Shown: piece by piece, positions 2,508 to 47,850 of the stretch
Layout: the number at the start of each line of letters is the position of its first letter
Numbering within the stretch: position 1 is the stretch's first letter
Origin: Bacillota bacterium
GTDB lineage: Bacteria > Bacillota > Negativicutes > Sporomusales > CTSoil-080
DNA length: 48,408 nt
Assembly (NCBI GenBank): GCA_017889625.1
Contig: JAGGAD010000011.1
Location: 1-48,408, forward strand
Direction: 5' to 3'
Translations under genes and position numbers: made by a program
Notes under the pieces: generated by a model
What the model was told of the DNA's origin: nothing
What the model saw: the letters and a program-made list of their open reading frames with translations, nothing else
The model's database searches: none

Positions 2508-2617
2508 CCTTCCTCTCATCTTTCAGGATTACTCCTGCTGGAATTAGCACCTTGCGCTGTCAGCGCCGGTTGCCGGGTGTCATCGGGCCAGTCCCTCGAC
2601 CACTCTGGATAAGAGTC
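2508..2617 (-). promoter_or_regulatory. SAM-I (S-box) riboswitch aptamer
   Basis: Reading the minus strand, the leader has the S-box blocks in order: CTCTTATCCAGAG (5' P1 strand and core), GAGGGACTGGCCCGATGA, CCCGGCAACC, GGTGCTAATTCC, then GATGAGAGGAAGG, which closes P1. These are the conserved SAM-I core elements in correct order and spacing. It precedes the metB-malY operon. High SAM is expected to stop transcription at the adjacent terminator. Confidence 0.97.
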
Positions 2618-25839: not shown

Positions 25840-26032
25840 TAATAGGTTACGAGTCACCGAGCCGAACACCTAATGAAGCGAATGCCTCCCCCATACAACT
25901 ACTAGGCCCAAAGATTTTATGAAATGCCTCGTAAAAATTTTTTTTCATAGTAGCACACTGGCTATTTTACCGCATATTATACATTAGCTTAACAATCGAT
26001 AACGGTTATCAAAATCGGTTATTGTAGCAATT

Positions 26033-26061
26033 TTGACCATCTGAGCAAAACTCAGTTTAAC
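26033..26061 (+). promoter_or_regulatory. Possible promoter of the manganese riboswitch
   Basis: TTGACC, a 17-base spacer and TTTAAC sit just before the aptamer. The -10 match is weak. Confidence 0.4.
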
Positions 26062-26062
26062 C

Positions 26063-26170
26063 TTATAAAGGGGAGTAGCTAACGAACCATTGTGTTCGTG
26101 AGTAGAATCGACATGCTGGCGCAAGCCCGGTTCTACAGACAGTGAATTCTGTCATAGCGAGACCTTTATT
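26063..26170 (+). promoter_or_regulatory. Manganese riboswitch (yybP-ykoY), orphan and opposite to mntH
   Basis: The aptamer shows the conserved yybP-ykoY blocks AAAGGGGAGTAGC, GCAAGCCCGG, ACAGACAG and CATAGCGAGACCTTTA in order. P1 pairs ATAAAGG (26065-26071) with CCTTTAT (26163-26169). The P1 3' strand is also the 5' arm of the terminator at 26159, so aptamer and terminator exclude each other and Mn2+ should switch transcription on. The next gene downstream, mntH, runs the other way; no plus-strand gene is present before 28154. Confidence 0.9.
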
Positions 26171-26213
26171 TCCGCAAATTCTGCGGAAATAAAGGTCTCT
26201 TTTAATTTTTTTC
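26159..26213 (+). terminator. Terminator of the manganese riboswitch
   Basis: A perfect 18-bp stem (GAGACCTTTATTTCCGCA and complement) with a five-base loop, followed by TTTTAATTTTTTT. Its 5' arm overlaps the aptamer P1 strand. Confidence 0.92.
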
Positions 26214-26219
26214 AATAAA

Positions 26220-26267
26220 TTCCGCAAGGTTTGAAGTAGGCTGTCACCTATTTCAAACCTTGCGGAA
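26220..26267. terminator. 21-bp hairpin after mntH
   Basis: TTCCGCAAGGTTTGAAGTAGG and its near-perfect complement (one G-U) with a six-base loop, 20 bases beyond the mntH stop. It lacks a T-run on either strand but is well placed to protect the mntH mRNA end or stop read-through. Confidence 0.6.
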
Positions 26268-26287
26268 CCAGTTCAGTACTTTGGACT

Positions 26288-27562
26288 TTAGCCTTGACCG
26301 TTAAAGGTAAGATACATTAAAACGACGTTCATGGCCAGAATCATTCCAACAATAAGCCAACCAAAACAATTTGTAAGTAAACTATTCTTGAATCTTCCCA
26401 TAATATTTTTCTTATTGGTAACGATCATCAACGGTATAATTGCCGCTGGTAAGGCAAAACTCAGCGCCACTTGACTATAAACCAAGGCCTCCATCGGATT
26501 AACGCCAACCATTAGAATAGCTAAGCCAGGAACCATCGTGATTAACCGCCGAACACTTGCTGGTATATCAAATCCCACAAAGCCCTTTAAAATAACTTCT
26601 CCCGCCATGGTCCCAACCGTCGCTGATGACAGACCAGAAGCCAACAGGGCTAAGCCAAAGGCCCCCGCCGCCATATTTCCCATCAACGGCTGCAGGGTCA
26701 TATAGGCTGCTTCAATGCTGTCGACATCAAGCCCGTTGCCATTAAATACCGCCGCCGCTACAATAACCATTGCCGCATTGACAATAAGCGCCATATTCAT
26801 TGCCACAAATACATCCACCTTTGCCATCTTTAAATGATGCTTACAATCTTCCAGTCCTTCCGTACGTCTTGATTGTACTAATTGAGAATGCAAGTAGATG
26901 ACATGTGGCATTACCGTTGCTCCCAACATGCCGACGGCCACTAACACGCTGGCGGGTGAAAGCATGGGAACCGTAACATGATAAGCAACCTGCGCCCAAT
27001 CCGGTTTAGACATAAACATTTCCCAGACATACGCTATGCTGATAACCGCTACCATCACTGTAATAATCCGTTCAACAATAACCTGCCCATATTTTTGCAT
27101 GTGACAAATTCCGTAGGTAATGATTCCGGTAAGTAGTGCAGCCCAAATCAGCGGTATCCCAAACAAAAGGTAAAAGCCCAATACTCCCCCAAGAAATTCC
27201 GCAAGGTCTGTAGCCATCGCTGCCACGGTAGCTATCGACCAAAATCCCCAGTTTATCGGCCGTGAGAAAATTCGTCCGCAATGGTCCGGTAAATTGACCC
27301 CGGTTGCAATTCCCAGCTTCGCCGACAATATCTGGACGAAGATTGCCATAATATTGCTCCACAGGATAACCCAAATAAGGTTGTAAGCAAATTGTGTGCC
27401 GCCGGAGATATTAGTACCGAAATTACCAGGGTCCATATATGCAACACTGACAATAAACGCCGGTCCGAGGTACTTGAGAAAGCCTTTGGCTTTTCCTTTG
27501 ATTTCACTTGATTTTAGCAACGAGTTCAGTGGAACAATTTGAACAACTTGTTCTTCTTGCAA
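26288..27562 (-). CDS. mntH: Nramp-family Mn2+/H+ symporter MntH
   Basis: About 424 residues with many membrane segments. TM1 has the metal-site motif MDPGNFGT, TM6 the GATVMPHVIYLHS (Met for soft transition metals), both diagnostic of Nramp transporters. Imports Mn2+ and probably Fe2+. Most likely starts at the TTG at 27562 behind AAGGGTGGT; a GTG three codons earlier overlaps the ribosome site. Its 3' end is faced by a plus-strand manganese riboswitch whose read-through would be antisense to this gene, while a long hairpin lies just past the stop. Confidence 0.95.
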   Translation of the reverse strand: MQEEQVVQIVPLNSLLKSSEIKGKAKGFLKYLGPAFIVSVAYMDPGNFGTNISGGTQFAYNLIWVILWSNIMAIFVQILSAKLGIATGVNLPDHCGRIFSRPINWGFWSIATVAAMATDLAEFLGGVLGFYLLFGIPLIWAALLTGIITYGICHMQKYGQVIVERIITVMVAVISIAYVWEMFMSKPDWAQVAYHVTVPMLSPASVLVAVGMLGATVMPHVIYLHSQLVQSRRTEGLEDCKHHLKMAKVDVFVAMNMALIVNAAMVIVAAAVFNGNGLDVDSIEAAYMTLQPLMGNMAAGAFGLALLASGLSSATVGTMAGEVILKGFVGFDIPASVRRLITMVPGLAILMVGVNPMEALVYSQVALSFALPAAIIPLMIVTNKKNIMGRFKNSLLTNCFGWLIVGMILAMNVVLMYLTFNGQG

Positions 27563-27733
27563 TATTACCACCCTTTTACTTGTAAACTACAATCCCCCCG
27601 CATTTTTAAAATAGACAACTTCTACAAATGTAGCTACTTTAGATTATGAGTTTAAAGCAAAATGGGTGCTTATCTATTACGAGATTAACCAACCATAATA
27701 ATGACATATTACATATCTTATCTAAAAGATCGT

Positions 27734-47494: not shown

Positions 47495-47573
47495 AATCGG
47501 CAACCTGGCAGTCGTAGACATCTGTCCTTAGACCCATAGCTTTGCGTCCTTATTTTTCAATAAGTTTGCCAAA
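47495..47573 (-). promoter_or_regulatory. c-di-GMP-I (GEMM) riboswitch
   Basis: On the minus strand the leader has GGCAAAC, a GAAA-type loop, GGACGCAAAGC, GGGTCTAAGG, a P3 arm and CCAGGTTGCCGA, the conserved GEMM-I blocks in correct order, including the GCAAAC/GACGCAAAGC core and the GGTTGCCGA closing strand. It is followed by a terminator and the small membrane/TPR/PRC-barrel genes. Confidence 0.92.
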
Positions 47574-47850
47574 AATATTTTAATTTTTTGTCAATTTTTG
47601 TTGAATAAATTTAATGTTTAAATTTTACACCTACATCCATCTATTAGTCAAGAATTTTTAGGACTAAAGTCTCATTTTGTAAAAAAGGGTTGACGTACGA
47701 TATTTATATTCTTTTTAAGACATATCAAATAACGACCCAAAAAATAATCGTGATCTTTGGACGATAATCATTAAATAAATAGAACTGCCTTTACATTCGA
47801 AAAGAATTAATTAATAATGACCATTAACTCGAAAATCTAGATCATTATCG
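47574..47850. other. AT-rich intergenic region
   Basis: Contains the presumed promoter of the riboswitch operon and no gene that I can support. Confidence 0.4.

Follow-up and report, generated by a model that had tools for sequence, protein, structure and literature searches.

The locus raises the question of why a riboswitch for Mn2+ should point at the 3′ end of a gene for Mn2+ import, with no gene of its own behind it. The window, a stretch of 48,408 nucleotides from a Bacillota bacterium of the Negativicutes (contig JAGGAD010000011.1), carries a yybP-ykoY-type switch on the plus strand (aptamer and terminator together, 26065-26216) that faces the 3′ end of the minus-strand gene mntH (26288-27571; PF01566, E = 8e-114), which encodes a Nramp-family Mn2+ importer and is the proposed target. 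Leaders of the yybP-ykoY family (RF00080) stand before mntP, yoaB and the GDT1/TerC exporters and follow an ON logic, in which Mn2+ binding stabilises the P1 helix and gives read-through. As the sequence-only reading had it, 75 bases separate position 26213 from the mntH stop codon; from the end of the aptamer the distance is 118 nt. The element thus takes the position expected of a riboswitch that acts in antisense, on the strand opposite its target, at that gene's 3′ end and less than 500 nt away, with an Mn-type aptamer opposite a Nramp importer. The claim that no sense gene follows for nearly 2 kb also holds, the first plus-strand open reading frame (ORF) past mntH lying about 1.9 kb beyond the switch.

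The aptamer (26065-26169, plus strand) scores 21.5 bits with RF00080 and 106.9 bits with R1, a covariance model that we built from the aptamers of relatives, and its structure is backed by covariation. Folding gives P1 (26065-26071/26163-26169), P2 (26078-26081/26155-26158), an extra helix after P2 (26082-26087/26094-26099), P3 (26102-26110/26128-26136), with the Mn-type internal loop ACATGCTGGC, and P4 (26138-26142/26149-26153). The family core AAAGGGGAGUAG ... AUCGACAUGCUGG ... UAGCGAGACCUUUA is present in the window copy. An intrinsic terminator follows (26159-26216, plus strand), comprising a perfect 18-bp stem (26159-26176/26182-26199) and a T-rich tail. Its 5′ arm includes the 3′ strand of P1, in the window as in the relatives, so that P1 and the terminator are mutually exclusive, as had been read from the letters alone. 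Folding of the whole element yielded a z score of -7.4, and none of 200 shuffled sequences folded equally well.

Upstream lies a promoter-like box, CATATTATACAT (25973-25984, plus strand), with a -10-like TATTAT at 25975-25980 and a weak -35-like element near 25952-25957. Most relatives carry CATATTATACA or a near variant about 30 nt ahead of the aptamer. A sigma-70 consensus scan of the window did not pick up the box, so it is conservation that marks it as a putative promoter. In the window the spacing is about 85 nt, and this leader, longer than in the relatives, counts somewhat against an antisense function. Between the box and the aptamer, positions 25998-26010 form the palindrome GATAACGGTTATC, which is similar to a Fur-type box and was not seen there in the relatives.

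A default Rfam scan of the window returned no match at the switch and called only a SAM (S-box) riboswitch (2513-2615, minus strand) and a c-di-GMP-I riboswitch (47496-47580, minus strand), both above the Rfam cut-off. A permissive scan of a 481-base stretch placed the RF00080 match at 26058-26232 on the plus strand (21.5 bits, E = 5e-4). The Rfam gathering score for this family is 45 bits, and the switch therefore escapes standard annotation. Across the whole order all RF00080 matches fall below 45 bits (best 43.7), those in GDT1 exporter leaders included, which makes the cut-off uninformative in this order. Many of these matches sit convergent at the 3′ end of mntH.

The arrangement that had been proposed, an Mn2+-activated switch aimed antisense at an Mn2+ importer, is strongly supported by its conservation in related genomes. 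Searching 380 Negativicutes genomes with R1, we obtained 17 matches at 99.6-123.6 bits, the next best scoring 62. All 17 converge on an mntH of one MntH clade (only a fragment in G318 and G020), and the matches are spread over 15 genomes, most of those compared being MAGs, and ten families. The relatives' adjoining mntH genes are 69-85% identical to that of the window (in G006 a contig end cuts mntH), and in the 15 measurable copies of standard layout the aptamer ends 102-166 nt from the mntH stop. A signature-pattern scan of genome contigs gave 13 matches, of which 12 are convergent with mntH; these include Sporomusa acidovorans, S. silvacetica, Lucifera butyrica, a Pelosinus MAG and further MAGs, while the remaining match, in an Anaerolineaceae genome, apparently precedes a sense mntP-like gene, judged by sequence. 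Comparing neighbourhoods, we found that flanking genes on either side are not shared and that only the switch and mntH stay together. Conservation in 15 Negativicutes genomes excludes a chance match, and because the pairing with mntH is kept across at least ten families, the switch looks like a real regulator rather than a leftover. The label 'orphan' given to it earlier is consequently wrong, since the switch and mntH are themselves the conserved unit. In G020 the switch is fused into the middle of mntH at a hairpin repeat, leaving 129 N-terminal residues, through either a repeat deletion or an assembly error.

An alignment of 15 aptamers shows that the fold is maintained as RNA. The core GGGGAGUAG ... 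ACAUACUGGC ... AGCGAGACC is invariant or nearly so, and covariation backs the P1-P4 fold: 97.3% of alignment cells hold standard pairs, seven pairs have changed on both sides, none of 500 shuffles scored as high, and shifting the pairing partners abolishes the signal. One U-G pair is invariant and one G-U pair nearly so, which fits an RNA read from the plus strand. Each of the 17 relatives has an equivalent terminator hairpin, whose stem carries compensated changes, although the tail is modest in some (6 T in 12 in G022-G025), a point against the antisense reading.

We propose, with a probability of roughly 0.8, that the element is an Mn2+ riboswitch dedicated to mntH and acting on it in antisense. 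Plus-strand transcription would begin upstream of 26065. At low Mn2+ the terminator hairpin would capture the 3′ strand of P1, transcription would end at about 26200-26216 and mntH would be expressed. At high Mn2+ the aptamer would keep P1 and block the terminator, and polymerase would cross the gap into the opposite strand of mntH. By analogy with the family, Mn2+ binding and ON logic are to be expected of the mntH switch, and read-through would then lower the importer through pairing of the antisense RNA or through polymerase collision.

The strongest competing explanation is that the transcript of the plus strand, ending at the terminator or a little beyond it, serves as an Mn-regulated small RNA, either for targets elsewhere or for mntH through a short paired region, without long antisense transcription. 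It draws on a second long hairpin in the gap, with 21-bp arms (minus strand, about 26217-26267), formed by an inverted repeat at 26220-26267, behind which the minus strand reads TTTATTG. The hairpin resembles an internal segment of mntH at about 27190-27240 (MATDLAEFLGG) and matches the antisense of codons about 106-127, the inverted repeat of the window being similar to codons about 119-127; the resemblance is kept in several genomes, with up to 28 identical bases (G002b). We rejected this hairpin as a pairing seed, because its matches to the mntH of the same genome do not beat those to the mntH of other genomes, which leaves no support for maintained pairing; the match is moreover missing in several genomes. 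The hairpin is accounted for as what is probably the minus-strand terminator of mntH, and we regard a small RNA as unlikely.

Two further explanations are considerably less probable still. If the switch served, in sense, a short ORF missed by annotation, either just after the terminator or past mntH, the candidates would be a 77-codon plus-strand ORF of the window, about 0.6 kb beyond the mntH start, and a small membrane protein encoded past mntH in three relatives. The gap in the window contains no ATG, however, the 77-codon ORF is not conserved, and a sense target past mntH was rejected because no plus-strand gene is common to the relatives. Alternatively, the plus-strand hairpin might do nothing but insulate mntH from upstream plus-strand transcription, with Mn sensing incidental. 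Convergent genes commonly share terminators, but insulation gives no reason for keeping a complete, covarying Mn aptamer together with a promoter-like box, and we give it as little weight as the small ORF. Least tenable is a functionless relic of a lost sense gene such as an exporter, an alternative raised by the sequence-only reading and consistent with the lack of a sense gene after the switch in the window, since 15 genomes of ten families keep the element in one place and orientation, with its aptamer intact, its promoter-like box present and its terminator stem compensated, and neither an exporter nor another conserved sense gene follows the switch in any of the 17 closest relatives.

Riboswitches acting on antisense transcription are an established kind, and what the mntH switch adds is a conserved Mn2+ subtype dedicated to one gene. 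As outlined in PMC9943018, two experimentally tested cases were known before, together with a survey showing no such tendency for the Mn class. In the first, as described there, an S-box at the 3′ end of the ubiG-mccB-mccA operon of Clostridium acetobutylicum controls antisense transcription by termination; its ligand terminates the antisense RNA and the operon is allowed, whereas at mntH ligand binding is expected to favour the antisense RNA and so to turn the gene down. In the second, in the same account, a B12 riboswitch of Listeria monocytogenes gates the antisense RNA aspocR against a neighbouring gene, which likewise differs from mntH in sign and also in ligand and in its target, a regulator rather than an importer. 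At mntH the predicted sign, with the ligand repressing the target, is thus opposite to that of both proven cases, and the antisense layout would be a simple route by which an ON switch can repress a gene.

The earlier statement that no such case had been described was mistaken, because Serrano-Gutierrez and Merino (2023) predicted a yybP-ykoY switch antisense to CFE_2050, a Mn transporter gene of Carboxydocella thermautotrophica (PMC9943018). That switch has the same placement at the 3′ end and the same proposed logic as ours, but it was predicted in a single genome without comparative evidence, whereas the subtype described here, which scores below the Rfam threshold, is devoted to mntH throughout ten families. 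Their survey, which relied on Rfam models, classed 5 of some 1,900 yybP-ykoY elements as antisense and saw no enrichment (PMC9943018); surveys at the Rfam threshold overlook elements such as those at mntH. In the papers searched we met no Mn subtype that is conserved at mntH, dedicated to it and opposite in sign to both tested cases, and nothing linking riboswitch, mntH and Negativicutes.

The mntH switch shares the aptamer core, the competition between P1 and terminator and the ON logic with the exporter leaders, but these are sense elements, while the mntH subtype has the extra helix after P2 and a sequence signature of its own; it seemingly exists only for antisense work. Among the twenty next-best R1 matches that were placed, nearly all have a sense gene close behind, mostly GDT1 (UPF0016), TerC, MntP or CaxA (L167 and L172 lack a clear-cut placement), and none is recognisably antisense to an importer. 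The source genome itself holds two more members of the class, in sense orientation ahead of GDT1 and TerC, likely Mn exporters. Sense switches at GDT1/TerC and an antisense switch at mntH would together give a push-pull response to Mn. In G022-G025 (L121-L124), mntH has immediately on its 5′ side a GDT1-type exporter gene with a sense Mn switch, which places one Mn switch on either side of the exporter-importer pair.

Across 398 genomes sampled evenly from the phylum, the same switch occurs in G523, a member of another class, where it faces an mntH of 72% identity; in G383 and G429, which may be Carboxydocella, the switch faces a Nramp gene of 50% identity. A diverged Mn-type switch in G547 (L222, 151-273) lies antisense to a distant Nramp gene, 51 nt off, and is possibly of independent origin. 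In two families of one order (G645, L149; G729, L160), a Mn-type switch lies 105-123 nt away from, and antisense to, feoB, which is apparently split or truncated in both. Such a distribution suggests that the arrangement arose or spread more than once, although the placement of the long branches is uncertain.

Finally, we compared the presence of the switch with that of MntR. An MntR-like protein occurs in 4 of 15 switch genomes versus 14 of 17 others compared (Fisher p = 0.0036, with kinship among genomes ignored). No MntR/DtxR-like protein or PF02742 domain was detected in the source genome and ten other switch genomes (11/15); the PF02742 search agrees with the MntR counts and detects the domain in 11 of 14 control genomes. 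In genomes of this kind the switch could account for the shutdown of Mn import. We rejected strict replacement of MntR, retaining it as a tendency only, because G009, G023, G027 and G116 hold both and the switch is therefore not always a substitute. At even odds in our estimation, one RNA class governs both directions in genomes without MntR, with sense switches turning exporters on and an antisense switch turning mntH off, the riboswitch replacing the metalloregulator, and this design arose or spread more than once, including at the distant Nramp gene (G547) and opposite feoB (G645, G729). Only one family with this MntH clade, f15 (four genomes), lacks the switch. In the three whose mntH 3′ flank is covered (G096, G104 and G102; L126, L127 and L128), an mntR-type gene of the DtxR family (PF01325, PF02742) lies convergent with mntH at the switch site. 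In the MntH tree, the f15 proteins nest within the switch-bearing clade (99/92 support), and the switch was thus probably lost in this family, which would make it dispensable.
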